Shown in pieces: positions 22,870-51,179 of a stretch of 64,000 nucleotides of DNA; the first letter of the stretch is position 1; each line of letters begins with the position of its first letter. The notes beneath the pieces were generated by a model, which did not search any database, was not told the DNA's origin, and saw only the letters and a list, made by a program, of their open reading frames with translations. The DNA comes from Collinsella aerofaciens (GTDB lineage Bacteria > Actinomycetota > Coriobacteriia > Coriobacteriales > Coriobacteriaceae), in assembly GCF_015558785.1 (NCBI RefSeq), contig NZ_JADMOP010000001.1, positions 62,001-126,000 of the forward strand, in the 5' to 3' direction. Position numbers and translations under genes: made by a program.

Positions 22870-24330
22870 TTAGCGCACCTGAGCGACGTAAGCAACGTTG
22901 GTCGAGGAGACCTTGTCCTCGAGCTGGACGCTCATGCGGGGATCGCCAGCGGTGGCGACGGTCAGGTCGCCGGCCTCGACGTAGCCGAGCTCCTTAGCGG
23001 TCTCGATCGCCTTGACGATCGTGCCGTTGACGGTGCCCTGGGTAATCTCGGCCTGGTGCGGGATAACGCCCCAGTACATGATCATCTGCTGGACGGCCCA
23101 CTCGTGGCGGGAGAACGCGCAGATCGGCATGTTGGGACGGAAGTGCGAGATCAGGCGAGCAGTACGGCCGGTGGTCGTCGGCACGGTGATGCACTTGGCG
23201 CCAACGGTGGTAGCCATGTTCACAGCGGACATACCCACAACGTTGTTGACAACGCGGGTGCCGTGAGCGTCAGCCGGAACCTCGAGCGGAGCGTGAGCCG
23301 GGAGGTACTTCTCGGTCTCGAGAGCAATGCTGGCCTGCATCTTGACGGCCTCAACCGGGTACTTACCGGCAGCGGACTCGCCGGACAGCATGACGGCGTC
23401 GGTGCCGTCGTAGATGGCGTTAGCAACGTCGGCAACCTCGGCGCGCGTCGGGCGCGGGTTCTGCTGCATGGAGTCGAGCATCTGCGTAGCGGTGATGACG
23501 GGCTTGTAGGCCGCGTTGCACTTGGCGATGATCTCCTTCTGGATGTGGGGAACGAGCTCGGGCTTGATCTCGATGCCCAGGTCGCCACGGGCGACCATGA
23601 TGCCGTCGGATGCCTCGAGGATCTCATCGAAGTTCTCGACGCCCAGGGCGCACTCGATCTTCGGGAAGATCGTCACGTGCTCGCCACCGTTCCCACGGCA
23701 AAGCTCGCGGATACCGCGGACGGACTCGCCGTCGCGGATGAAGGAAGCGGCGATGTAGTCGATGTTCTCGGTCAGGCCAAAGAGGATGTCCTGACGATCG
23801 CGCTCGGTGATAGCGGGCAGCGAGATGTTGACGTTGGGCATGTTGACGCCCTTGCGCTCGCCGATCAGGCCGTCGTTCTTGACGACGCAGGTCATGTCCT
23901 GGCCGTCGACGGACTCGACCTCGAGGGCAACCAGGCCGTCATCGATCAGGATGAGGGAGCCCTTCTCGACCTCGGAGGGCAGAGCCAGGTAGTCGAGGGA
24001 GATGTGCTCAGCGGTGCCGTGGAAATCCTCGGTCGTGGGCTGAGCGGTGACGACGATCTTGTCGCCGGTCTTGACGGCAACCTTCTTGCCATCGACCAGA
24101 AGACCGGTGCGGACCTCGGGGCCCTTGGTGTCGAGCAGGATGCCGACGGGCATACCGAGCTCCTTGGAAATACGACGGACGCGCTCGATGCGACCGTGGT
24201 GCTCGTCGTAGGAGCCGTGCGAGAAGTTAAAACGGGCGACGTTCATGCCCGCCTTGATCATCTCGCGGATGGTCTCGTCGCTATCGCAGGCGGGACCCAT
24301 GGTGCATACAATCTTAGTGCGCTTGTACAT
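22870..24330 (-). CDS. pyk: Pyruvate kinase
   Basis: The 486-residue enzyme makes pyruvate and ATP from phosphoenolpyruvate in the last step of glycolysis. Landmarks are KIVCTMGPACDS at the start, MNVARFNFSHG near 30, the active-site lysine in FPKIECALGVENFDEI near 225, MVARGDLGIEI near 250, and ITATQMLDSM plus AEVADVANAIYDGTDAVMLS near 285-320. The C-terminal allosteric domain spans about 350-480. GGAGG lies 5 bases before ATG 24330. It is a monocistronic unit with a strong terminator. Confidence 0.97.
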   Translation of the reverse strand: MYKRTKIVCTMGPACDSDETIREMIKAGMNVARFNFSHGSYDEHHGRIERVRRISKELGMPVGILLDTKGPEVRTGLLVDGKKVAVKTGDKIVVTAQPTTEDFHGTAEHISLDYLALPSEVEKGSLILIDDGLVALEVESVDGQDMTCVVKNDGLIGERKGVNMPNVNISLPAITERDRQDILFGLTENIDYIAASFIRDGESVRGIRELCRGNGGEHVTIFPKIECALGVENFDEILEASDGIMVARGDLGIEIKPELVPHIQKEIIAKCNAAYKPVITATQMLDSMQQNPRPTRAEVADVANAIYDGTDAVMLSGESAAGKYPVEAVKMQASIALETEKYLPAHAPLEVPADAHGTRVVNNVVGMSAVNMATTVGAKCITVPTTTGRTARLISHFRPNMPICAFSRHEWAVQQMIMYWGVIPHQAEITQGTVNGTIVKAIETAKELGYVEAGDLTVATAGDPRMSVQLEDKVSSTNVAYVAQVR

Positions 24331-24623: not shown

Positions 24624-24653
24624 TTGGCTAGACGCGCCGCTTTGGGGTACCAT
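24624..24653 (+). promoter_or_regulatory. Promoter of the P-ATPase gene
   Basis: TTGGCT at 24624-24629 and TACCAT at 24648-24653 are 18 bases apart, putting the start of transcription near 24660 and giving a leader of about 110 bases. Confidence 0.55.
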
Positions 24654-24659
24654 AGCTCC

Positions 24660-24771
24660 ACTATCAACTGCCGCTCAGCACGGCAGCCTTGATGAGCCCT
24701 TGCCCTTCTCCTGGGAATTATGATCGGGCATCAATCTGCTGAGTGGCCCGAATCCCAGGAGGGGACTCTAT
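24660..24771 (+). promoter_or_regulatory. Structured leader that can hide the ribosome site
   Basis: CTCCTGGGA (24708-24716) pairs with TCCCAGGAG (24753-24761), burying the AGGAGGGG ribosome site, with CGGGC/GCCCG as an inner stem. An alternative pairs TTGATG-AG-CCC (24689-24699) with GGGCATCAA (24726-24734), breaking the inner stem. A third helix, ATCAA-CTGCCG/CGGCAG-CC-TTGAT (24663-24693), competes with that alternative. This is the logic of a riboswitch acting on translation. It matches no riboswitch class I can name. Confidence 0.6.
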
Positions 24772-27453
24772 ATGCAAAAGGAATACCTGTCCGCCGCGGC
24801 GGAGGTGCTCAGCGACCAAGGTGTCGATGAGAACCTCGGCCTGAGCGACGACGAGGCGTCGTCGCGCCTCGCTAAGACAGGCCCTAACAAGCTCGAGGAA
24901 GCCGAGAAGACGCCGCTGTGGAAGCGCTTCTTTGAGCAGATGGCAGATCCCATGGTCATCATGCTGATCGCAGCCGCGGTTATCAGCGCGCTCACGGGCC
25001 TGGTCAAGGGCGAGGCGGACTTTGCCGATGTCGCCATCATCATGTTCGTCGTTATCGTCAACTCGGTGCTGGGCGTGGTCCAGGAAGCCAAGAGCGAGGA
25101 GGCTCTCGAGGCCCTGCAGGAGATGAGCGCGGCGCAGTCCAAGGTGCTGCGCGACGGCAAGCTCGTGCACCTGCCGAGCGCCGAGCTCGTCCCCGGTGAC
25201 GTGATCATGCTCGAGGCGGGCGACTCCGTCCCGGCCGACTGCCGCGTGCTCGAGAGCGCCACGATGAAGATCGAAGAGGCCGCACTCACCGGCGAGTCCG
25301 TGCCCGTAGAGAAGCACGCCAACGTGATCGAGCTTGCCGCGGGCACCGATGACGTGCCGCTCGGCGACCGCAAGAACATGTGCTACATGGGCTCCACCGT
25401 GGTGTACGGCCGCGGCCGCGCCGTCGTGGTCGGTACCGGCATGGATACCGAGATGGGCAAGATCGCCGGCGCCCTGGCCGAGGCCAAGGAAGAGCTTACG
25501 CCGCTGCAGGTGAAGCTTGCCGAGCTCAGCCGCATCCTTACCATCATGGTGATCGTCATCTGCGTTGTGATCTTTGGCGTCGACATCATCCGCCACGGCG
25601 TAGGCAACGTCCTTACCGACCCGACTGCCCTGCTCGACACCTTTATGGTCGCCGTCTCACTCGCCGTCGCTGCCATCCCCGAGGGCCTGGTCGCCGTCGT
25701 GACCATCGTGCTGTCGCTCGGCGTGACCAAGATGGCCAAGCGCCAGGCAATCATCCGCAAGCTCTCTGCCGTCGAGACTCTCGGCTGTACGCAGACCATC
25801 TGCTCCGACAAGACCGGCACCCTTACCCAAAACAAGATGACCGTCGTCAAGCGCGAGCTCGCCGCGCCTAAGGAGAAGTTCCTGGCCGGTATGGCCCTTT
25901 GCTCCGACGCCCAGTGGGACGAGGAGCTGGGCGAGGCCGTGGGCGAGCCGACCGAGTGCGCGCTCGTCAACGACGCCGGCAAGGCTGGTCTCACCGGTCT
26001 GACTGCCGAGCACCCGCGCGTGGGCGAGGCCCCGTTCGACTCGGGCCGCAAGATGATGTCCGTGGTCGTCGAGACCCTGGACGGCGAGTACGAGCAGTAC
26101 ACCAAGGGCGCGCCCGACGTGGTAATCGGCCTGTGCACCCACATCTACGAGGGCGATAGGGTCGTCCCCCTGACCGAGGAGCGTCGCGCCGAGCTCGTGG
26201 CCGCCAACAAGGCCATGGCCGACGAGGCCTTGCGCGTGTTGGCGCTGGCAAGCCGCACCTACACCGAGGTCCCGAGCGACTGCAGCCCCGCTGCGCTCGA
26301 GCACGACCTGGTCTTCTGCGGCCTGTCCGGCATGATTGACCCTGTCCGCCCCGAGGTCGCCGACGCCATCCGCGAGGCCCACGACGCCGGTATCCGCACC
26401 GTCATGATCACGGGTGACCATATCGACACCGCCGTGGCCATTGCCAAGCAGCTGGGAATCGTCACCGATCGCAGCCAGGCCATCACCGGTGCCGACCTCG
26501 ATCGCATGAGCGACGAGGAACTCGACGCACACATCGAGGACTACGGCGTGTACGCTCGCGTCCAGCCTGAGCACAAGACCCGCATCGTCGAGGCATGGAA
26601 GTCGCGCGACCAGATTGTGGCCATGACGGGCGACGGCGTCAACGACGCCCCGTCCATCAAGCGCGCCGACATCGGCGTGGGCATGGGCATCACCGGCACC
26701 GACGTCACCAAGAACGTCGCCGACATGGTGCTCGCCGACGACAATTTCGCCACCATCATCGGTGCCTGCGAAGAGGGCCGTCGCATCTACGACAACATCC
26801 GCAAGGTCATCCAGTTCCTGCTTTCGGCTAACCTTGCCGAGGTCTTCTCGGTGTTTATCGCCACGCTCATCGGCTTTACCATCTTCCAGCCGGTGCAGCT
26901 GCTGTGGGTGAACCTGGTCACCGACTGTTTCCCCGCGCTTGCGCTGGGCATGGAGGATGCCGAGGGCGACATCATGAAGCGCAAGCCGCGCAACGCCAAG
27001 GACGGCGTCTTTGCCGGCAATATGGGTCTGGACTGCGTGGTCCAGGGCCTGATCATCACCGTGCTGGTGCTGGCGAGCTTCTTTGTGGGCGTGTACTTTG
27101 ACATGGGCTACATCCACATCGCCGATATGATCGCCGGCAATGCCGACGAGGAAGGCGTGATGATGGCGTTCATCACGCTCAACATGGTCGAGATTTTCCA
27201 CTGCTTCAATATGCGCAGCCGTCGTGCGTCGCTGTTCACCATGAAGAAGCAGAACAAGTGGCTGTGGGCTTCGGCCGCGCTGGCGCTGGTGCTGACGGTG
27301 ATCGTGACCGTGCAGCCGACGCTTGCCGAGATGTTCTTTGGCCCCGTGACGCTTGAGCTCAAGGGCGTTCTTGCCGCGCTGGGCCTGGCCTTCCTGATCA
27401 TCCCGCTGATGGAGATCTACAAGGCGATCATGCGCGCGGTCGAAAAAGAGTAA
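24772..27453 (+). CDS. Calcium-type P-type ATPase (P2 family)
   Basis: The 893-residue pump has an N-terminal cation-ATPase domain, ten predicted membrane helices, and the phosphorylation motif CSDKTGTLTQNK (about residue 345). The actuator loop TGES lies near 167, the hinge TGDGVNDAPSIKRADIG near 620, and helix M4 shows AIPEGLVAVV. M6 reads LWVNLVTDCFPALALGME, which with PEGL is the Ca2+-ATPase pattern. It would export Ca2+ or a similar divalent cation. ATG 24772 follows AGGAGGGG, the site that the leader can sequester. It is monocistronic, followed by a very large hairpin. Substrate by homology only; manganese is an alternative. Confidence 0.9.
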   Translation: MQKEYLSAAAEVLSDQGVDENLGLSDDEASSRLAKTGPNKLEEAEKTPLWKRFFEQMADPMVIMLIAAAVISALTGLVKGEADFADVAIIMFVVIVNSVLGVVQEAKSEEALEALQEMSAAQSKVLRDGKLVHLPSAELVPGDVIMLEAGDSVPADCRVLESATMKIEEAALTGESVPVEKHANVIELAAGTDDVPLGDRKNMCYMGSTVVYGRGRAVVVGTGMDTEMGKIAGALAEAKEELTPLQVKLAELSRILTIMVIVICVVIFGVDIIRHGVGNVLTDPTALLDTFMVAVSLAVAAIPEGLVAVVTIVLSLGVTKMAKRQAIIRKLSAVETLGCTQTICSDKTGTLTQNKMTVVKRELAAPKEKFLAGMALCSDAQWDEELGEAVGEPTECALVNDAGKAGLTGLTAEHPRVGEAPFDSGRKMMSVVVETLDGEYEQYTKGAPDVVIGLCTHIYEGDRVVPLTEERRAELVAANKAMADEALRVLALASRTYTEVPSDCSPAALEHDLVFCGLSGMIDPVRPEVADAIREAHDAGIRTVMITGDHIDTAVAIAKQLGIVTDRSQAITGADLDRMSDEELDAHIEDYGVYARVQPEHKTRIVEAWKSRDQIVAMTGDGVNDAPSIKRADIGVGMGITGTDVTKNVADMVLADDNFATIIGACEEGRRIYDNIRKVIQFLLSANLAEVFSVFIATLIGFTIFQPVQLLWVNLVTDCFPALALGMEDAEGDIMKRKPRNAKDGVFAGNMGLDCVVQGLIITVLVLASFFVGVYFDMGYIHIADMIAGNADEEGVMMAFITLNMVEIFHCFNMRSRRASLFTMKKQNKWLWASAALALVLTVIVTVQPTLAEMFFGPVTLELKGVLAALGLAFLIIPLMEIYKAIMRAVEKE

Positions 27454-50622: not shown

Positions 50623-50699
50623 GCGGCGTTACCTCAGCTGGATAGAGGGTCTGACTACGAATCAGAACGTCATAGGTTCGAATCCTATACGCCGCACCA
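50623..50699 (+). tRNA. tRNA-Arg (ACG), copy 1
   Basis: GCGGCGT/ACGCCGC acceptor, anticodon loop CTACGAA giving ACG, CCA encoded. First of three identical genes spaced exactly 240 bases apart. Promoter TTGACT with TTTTAT 17 bases downstream lies upstream. Confidence 0.95.
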
Positions 50700-50710
50700 A
50701 TTGAACTTGA

Positions 50711-50738
50711 AGCCTCCGGCAACGGGGGCTTTTCTTTT
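50711..50738 (+). terminator. Terminator of tRNA-Arg copy 1
   Basis: AGCCTCCG-GCAA-CGGGGGCT hairpin followed by TTTCTTTT. The stem contains one T-G pair. Confidence 0.85.
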
Positions 50739-50862
50739 ACGCCGGCACCGCACGGATTCGAACCTCGGTCGAGGCGCGAGCATCTTAATCATCACTTCGT
50801 AAAATTTTTCCAAATTGTCGCTTGACCCATCGAGGGGTCACGTGCATAATAATCCGTGCGTT

Positions 50863-50939
50863 GCGGCGTTACCTCAGCTGGATAGAGGGTCTGACTACGA
50901 ATCAGAACGTCATAGGTTCGAATCCTATACGCCGCACCA
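50863..50939 (+). tRNA. tRNA-Arg (ACG), copy 2
   Basis: Identical to copy 1. The preceding promoter is TTGACC and CATAAT, 17 bases apart. Confidence 0.95.
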
Positions 50940-50950
50940 ATTGATTTTAA

Positions 50951-50978
50951 AGCTCCCGGCAACGGGAGCTTTTCTTTT
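50951..50978 (+). terminator. Terminator of tRNA-Arg copy 2
   Basis: AGCTCCCG-GCAA-CGGGAGCT: both arms differ from copy 1 in a compensating way, keeping the stem. Confidence 0.85.
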
Positions 50979-51102
50979 ACGCCGGCACCGCACGGATTCG
51001 AACCTCGGTCGAGGCGCGAGCATCTTAATCATCACTTCGTAAAATTTTTCCAAATTGTCGCTTGACCCATCGAGGGGTCACGTGCATAATAATCCGTGCG
51101 TC

Positions 51103-51179
51103 GCGGCGTTACCTCAGCTGGATAGAGGGTCTGACTACGAATCAGAACGTCATAGGTTCGAATCCTATACGCCGCACCA
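51103..51179 (+). tRNA. tRNA-Arg (ACG), copy 3
   Basis: Identical to copies 1 and 2, with the same upstream promoter as copy 2 and the same terminator as copy 1 (51191-51218). Confidence 0.95.

Follow-up and report, generated by a model that had tools for sequence, protein, structure and literature searches.

A conserved leader upstream of a SERCA-like Ca2+-ATPase gene

The window, meaning the whole 64,000-nucleotide stretch of a Collinsella genome that was analysed, contains a leader sequence between a cation pump gene and a divergently oriented pyruvate kinase gene. Near-identical leaders are carried by C. aerofaciens and its relatives. The locus is organized as follows:

22870-24330, minus strand: pyruvate kinase gene, divergent, on the other flank of the leader
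24624-24653, plus strand: candidate promoter TTGGCT-18 nt-TACCAT (-10 box), from sequence reading and the upstream column of 76 relatives
24660-24771, plus strand: leader, 112 nt, 5' of the SERCA-like Ca2+ P-type ATPase gene
24772-27453, plus strand: SERCA-like P2A Ca2+-ATPase, 893 aa, the sole gene type seen behind the element

The candidate promoter places the likely RNA start near 24660, and its -10 part, 'GGGTAnnAT', recurs 5' of the element in most of the 76 relatives compared. The promoter assignment is weak because a sigma-70 scan called no promoter at this site. The predicted folding energy of the leader is -47.7 kcal/mol, compared with -38.2 kcal/mol for dinucleotide shuffles (z -2.66).

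The ATPase is closest to Listeria LMCA1 and to the SERCA/SPCA Ca2+ pumps. The equivalents of SERCA N768, E771, T799 and E908 (site I) and of E309, N796 and D800 (site II) are kept in all orthologues covered (53-67 per residue), while LMCA1 lacks E771, T799 and E908 in the same alignment. By the ion-site residues of both sites, the protein is thus a P2A (SERCA-type) Ca2+-ATPase. It scores below the NCBIfam equivalog cut-offs of both the PMR1 and the SERCA models and therefore represents a bacterial branch of its own.

Conserved architecture and covariation of the leader

Read from aligned sequences, the relatives share one conserved predicted architecture: a helix P1, a helix P2 with a GA bulge, an asymmetric UUG/AAUUAUGAUC internal loop and a hairpin P3. 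An alternative 5' hairpin (P0) can also be drawn. The elements are:

24663-24693, plus strand: P0, alternative 5' hairpin ATCAACTGCCG/CGGCAGCCTTGAT, in the MFE structure, exclusive with P1 and P2
24670-24680, plus strand: P1 5' strand GCCGCTCAGCA, pairs with 24737-24747 (RNAalifold)
24689-24699, plus strand: P2 5' strand TTGAT-GA-GCCC, pairs with 24726-24734, GA bulge at 24694-24695
24700-24702, plus strand: UUG, forming the internal loop on its 5' side (candidate ligand pocket), nearly invariant across 74 distinct copies
24703-24715, plus strand: P3 hairpin CCC-TTCTCCT-GGG, with CCC/GGG pairs 24703-24705/24713-24715
24716-24725, plus strand: AAUUAUGAUC, forming the internal loop on its 3' side (candidate ligand pocket), nearly invariant
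24726-24734, plus strand: P2 3' strand GGGC-ATCAA (RNAalifold, covariation)
24737-24747, plus strand: P1 3' strand TGCTGAGTGGC (RNAalifold, covariation)

P1 comprises 11 bp (RNAalifold drew 10), and P2 is built of 5 bp, the GA bulge and 4 bp. The near-invariant core reads GCCC-UUG-CCCC...GGGG-AAUUAUGAUC-GGG, in which a 3/10-nt asymmetric internal loop lies between two G-C helices and a two-purine bulge precedes the core. P3 is CCCC/GGGG in most relatives, with a loop of variable length and 97% of cells paired, and it is lengthened into a long hairpin in one relative (L033). P0-like 5' hairpins are drawable in most relatives in varying register. The sequence of P1 is free to vary while pairing is kept, and the helix is absent or off-register in some groups (L034-L038, L110, L111, L145 and L147); the core is therefore the P2-loop-P3 hairpin. 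In the C. intestinalis type (L034-L038), P1 seems to be missing because the promoter occupies its site.

When 21 distinct leaders were aligned with plain MAFFT and folded by RNAalifold with no structural hint, P1, P2 and P3 were recovered; in 11 pairs both partners had changed and still paired. Among 74 distinct copies, two-sided changes occur in 17 of 24 pairs, including all 11 pairs of P1, and 91% of cells pair. The covariation score of these copies is 0.365 compared with 0.172 in shuffles, none of 500 shuffles reaches the observed value, and sliding the partners by 1-3 columns reduces the score to 0.07 or less. We also applied a stricter null, written for this analysis, in which substitutions are re-dealt along the tree and column rates are kept. 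Significant column pairs then fall solely within the structure (three on the model-fitted alignment, one on the plain MAFFT alignment), the most significant being 24693-24730, which switches between U-A, C-G and A-U. The inner P2 pairs and P3 hardly vary, so that they are supported by conservation and covariation cannot vouch for them. The leader thus has a conserved 5' structure supported by covariation, as is general for riboswitches. The original prediction of an unassigned, switchable leader on a Ca-type P-ATPase, which proposed covariation in homologous leaders as a check, is borne out in this respect; it had missed P1 (24670-24680/24737-24747) and the small P3 hairpin.

The same alignment bears on leader-peptide attenuation, which would involve an upstream ORF starting within TTGATGAGC (ATG AGC CCT TGC ...) and ending in TGA at 24740-24742. 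The window has this reading frame open, and the start position is occupied by ATG or GTG in 50 of the 74 copies; the other 24 have ACG, ACA, AAG or another non-start codon, several of them with compensating changes in P2. Furthermore, the length of the P3 loop runs through all three frames and no SD precedes the ORF. As neither start codon nor frame is conserved, we rejected this explanation as extremely improbable.

Exclusive pairings and predicted sequestration of the ribosome-binding site

Three further features define the predicted coupling of the core to translation:

24708-24716, plus strand: anti-SD CTCCTGGGA, which in the putative OFF state pairs with 24753-24761
24753-24764, plus strand: SD region TCCCAGGAGGGG, which in the putative OFF state is hidden by 24708-24716
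24757-24764, plus strand: SD AGGAGGGG, 7 nt 5' of the ATG at 24772

It had been proposed that three mutually exclusive helices can form, the third burying the ribosome site. All three are present and share strands: helix (i) pairs ATCAA-CTGCCG (24663-24673) with CGGCAG-CC-TTGAT (24681-24693), helix (ii) pairs TTGAT-GA-GCCC (24689-24699) with GGGC-ATCAA (24726-24734), and helix (iii) pairs CTCCTGGGA (24708-24716) with TCCCAGGAG (24753-24761) and indeed covers the SD. Helices (i) and (ii) share TTGAT and helix (iii) uses CTCCTGGG of the P2 loop, and the helices therefore compete.

Across relatives, the P3 arm (CCCCUCCUGGGG) can pair with the SD stretch (CCCAGGAGGG) over 8-12 bp in most copies; the mean complementarity score is 23.2, whereas shuffling the SD regions gives 11.2 (sd 2.8). 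Because this complementarity spans the whole P3 arm, beyond the loop, P3 and SD pairing are mutually exclusive. Joint changes preserve the anti-SD/SD pairing in L097 and L099 (CUCCC/GGGAG) and in the second copies L032 and L118 (UUCUU/AAGAG or similar). The best-scoring folds pair at least 80% of the SD in 63 of 76 leaders; with P1-P3 forced, at a median cost of 7.9 kcal/mol, this holds for three of 76. The OFF state is thus several kcal/mol more stable in the computed folds, and binding or co-transcriptional folding must compensate. Sequence and computed folds together indicate an expression platform that is exclusive with the aptamer fold, another general property of riboswitches. There is good support for a cis-acting translational switch, which we consider highly probable.

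An RNA thermometer, or a plain SD-sequestering hairpin without a ligand, would also bury the SD in a stable helix, as the best-scoring fold does. It would leave unexplained both the near-invariant 13-nt internal loop and the second, covarying fold, and we consider it very unlikely.

The anti-SD is absent in a few copies (L033, L106, L108, L114 and L122), which must use another expression platform. In L106 and L122, GCCCGAUC lies just 5' of the SD and matches the complement of the loop/P2 3' strand GAUCGGGC perfectly; judged from this complementarity, it is a putative alternative coupling of the same core to the SD. Terminator and sigma-70 scans were uninformative.

Distribution and gene linkage

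Of 37 genomes of the genus (the source genome included), 34 gave a match to the leader in a DNA similarity search, as did three genomes of a sister family. With a covariance model (R1), the element was detected in 163 of 398 genomes of the class Coriobacteriia. Save one weak match, these are confined to Coriobacteriaceae and Atopobiaceae, and the element is present in essentially every tested genome of the Collinsella family and of Atopobiaceae. One absence (G003) is a contig cut, and G323 carries a divergent copy. No second copy was found in the source genome, where a match at E 0.2 (L271) was taken as chance. The Eggerthellaceae homologues of the ATPase, only ~45% identical, have no such leader. 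In one Atopobiaceae genus, two loci (L132 and L133, in G140 and G145) encode an ATPase orthologue of 67-68% identity and show no recognisable element.

The same ATPase lies directly behind all 76 sampled copies, and behind all 73 named-genome copies with enough downstream sequence. This consistent linkage to a transport function, with a single gene type, is also general for riboswitches. The basis is narrow, being one gene type and two bacterial families.

A scan of 84,980 species genomes with the core pattern gave at least 80 matches. Seven of the 80 matches listed lie outside Coriobacteriia; we read them as coding or chance matches and rejected a spread beyond the two families. Weak outliers from two model searches (phylum and class) were likewise rejected, as L273, L274 and L276 sit inside unrelated coding frames, and none of six fetched outlier loci contains the ATPase.

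A highly conserved loop linked to a single gene would also fit a binding site for a trans-acting protein or small RNA, which would be expected to leave a similar footprint with no ligand-binding aptamer. No RNA-binding protein, whether autoregulated or a partner, is known to accompany P-type ATPases, the element is found before no other gene, and the varied platforms on the same core (L106 and L122 compared with the rest) suit an aptamer better. We regard a trans-acting factor as distinctly unlikely.

Comparison with known RNA families

No model of Rfam 15 (4227 models) matches the leader at gathering or permissive (E<=10) thresholds. In particular, RF00080 (yybP-ykoY) has no match in the leader at E<=10 or in 20 relatives at E<=5, and the NiCo, Na+-I (DUF1646) and Li+ (nhaA) models match neither the leader nor the 20 relatives. 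The original prediction had seen neither the yybP-ykoY nor the NiCo core and had named Rfam models as a check; both observations agree with these searches. Searches of main texts, outside a 2017 survey of 224 motifs, found no published account of the element.

The NiCo (czcD) riboswitch resembles the element in sensing a divalent metal and controlling efflux genes. However, NiCo is a four-way junction, whereas the present element is a linear helix stack. The yybP-ykoY family (RF00080, Streptococcus mgtA) is also a cis leader switch, presumed ON, on a divalent-cation efflux P-type ATPase; in contrast, the present element is a linear hairpin with a UUG/AAUUAUGAUC loop and a translational SD platform, restricted to two Coriobacteriia families. 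Na+-I (the DUF1646 motif) likewise senses an ion through a compact, hairpin-type structure and lies on cation-transport genes (PMC9337991), but its conserved sequence and architecture differ, and its genes include Na+ transporters and V-type ATPases. The nqrA-II, mgtE and other strong riboswitch candidates of a 50-genome survey are also orphan leader RNAs of cation-transport genes supported by covariation only; by that paper's descriptions, their genes and structures differ, and its main text does not name Collinsella, Olsenella or Atopobium (PMC11109978).

A yybP-ykoY-like leader that scores below threshold (15 bits compared with a gathering score of 45; E 0.029 in 301 bases) precedes an ATPase homologue of 46% identity from a different family of the class (L136:1310-1463).

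A proposed ion-sensing mechanism

We propose that the leader probably acts in cis as an RNA switch on translation of the Ca2+-exporting P-type ATPase, and that this switch is most likely a riboswitch sensing an ion. The aptamer would be the P2-asymmetric loop (UUG/AAUUAUGAUC)-P3 hairpin, usually closed by P1. A cytosolic ion, with Ca2+ as the best guess and Mn2+ as the main rival, would fill the loop and allow P2 and P3 to form; CUCCUGGG would then be locked and the SD free, and the pump would be translated. Without the ion, P0 would take the 5' strand of P1/P2, and CUCCUGGG would pair with CCCAGGAG and hide the SD. The mutual exclusivity of the pairings, together with the pump's role in efflux, leads us to infer the ON direction.

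The simplest interpretation, that the RNA directly senses the ion transported by the pump, appears reasonably likely. The suggestion of a new or divergent metal-sensing class is supported as far as the element being new and unassigned is concerned; we infer metal sensing itself from the exclusive linkage to a cation pump, the near-invariant internal loop and the ON-type platform. Ca2+ is, tentatively, the likeliest ion.

Alternatively, the same architecture could bind Mn2+ or another divalent ion, the pump being chiefly an Mn2+ or Mn2+/Ca2+ exporter and the counterpart of yybP-ykoY/Streptococcus MgtA. In S. pneumoniae, mgtA is under a yybP-ykoY riboswitch described as Mn/Ca-sensing (PMC11434433). 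No yybP-ykoY match was found in 19 Coriobacteriaceae/Atopobiaceae genomes, so that the niche of an Mn2+ switch looks empty, and the sub-threshold leader of the remote homologue also fits this alternative. However, both SERCA Ca2+ sites are intact in the pump, whereas the Mn2+-transporting PMR1/SPCA pumps have the second site only, and the RNA core is unlike RF00080. On balance, an Mn2+-type ligand seems unlikely.

Validated ion riboswitches respond to Na+, Li+, Mg2+, Mn2+, Ni2+/Co2+ and F-. Ca2+ goes unmentioned in a survey of riboswitch ligands published in 2022 (PMC9971707), and no paper describing a riboswitch that senses Ca2+ came up in a text search. With Ca2+ as the ligand, the element may be the first natural riboswitch class dedicated to this ion, a UUG/AAUUAUGAUC hairpin aptamer switching on translation of a two-site SERCA-like pump. 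The sensing and control of cytosolic Ca2+ in bacteria are poorly known, and the element provides a short candidate, with natural variants at hand for binding tests, from bacteria that are abundant in the gut (Collinsella) and the mouth (Atopobium, Lancefieldella).

Two-copy genomes and other observations

Genomes of the Collinsella tanakaei group carry two copies of the element (L032, L118, L149 and L150; for example G036:C55, G022:C21, G007, G012, G017 and G097). The copies are 3-7 kb apart in several cases, and each lies 5' of its own ATPase start. In the second copy, outer P2 is broken (CUCUAGAG compared with GCAAAA) and the loop reads AAUUAAGAUC, changes that perhaps reflect an altered specificity.

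Elsewhere in the window, three tRNA-Arg(acg) genes (50623-51179) have an exact 240-nt spacing and equal model scores, forming a tandem repeat of the tRNA unit.
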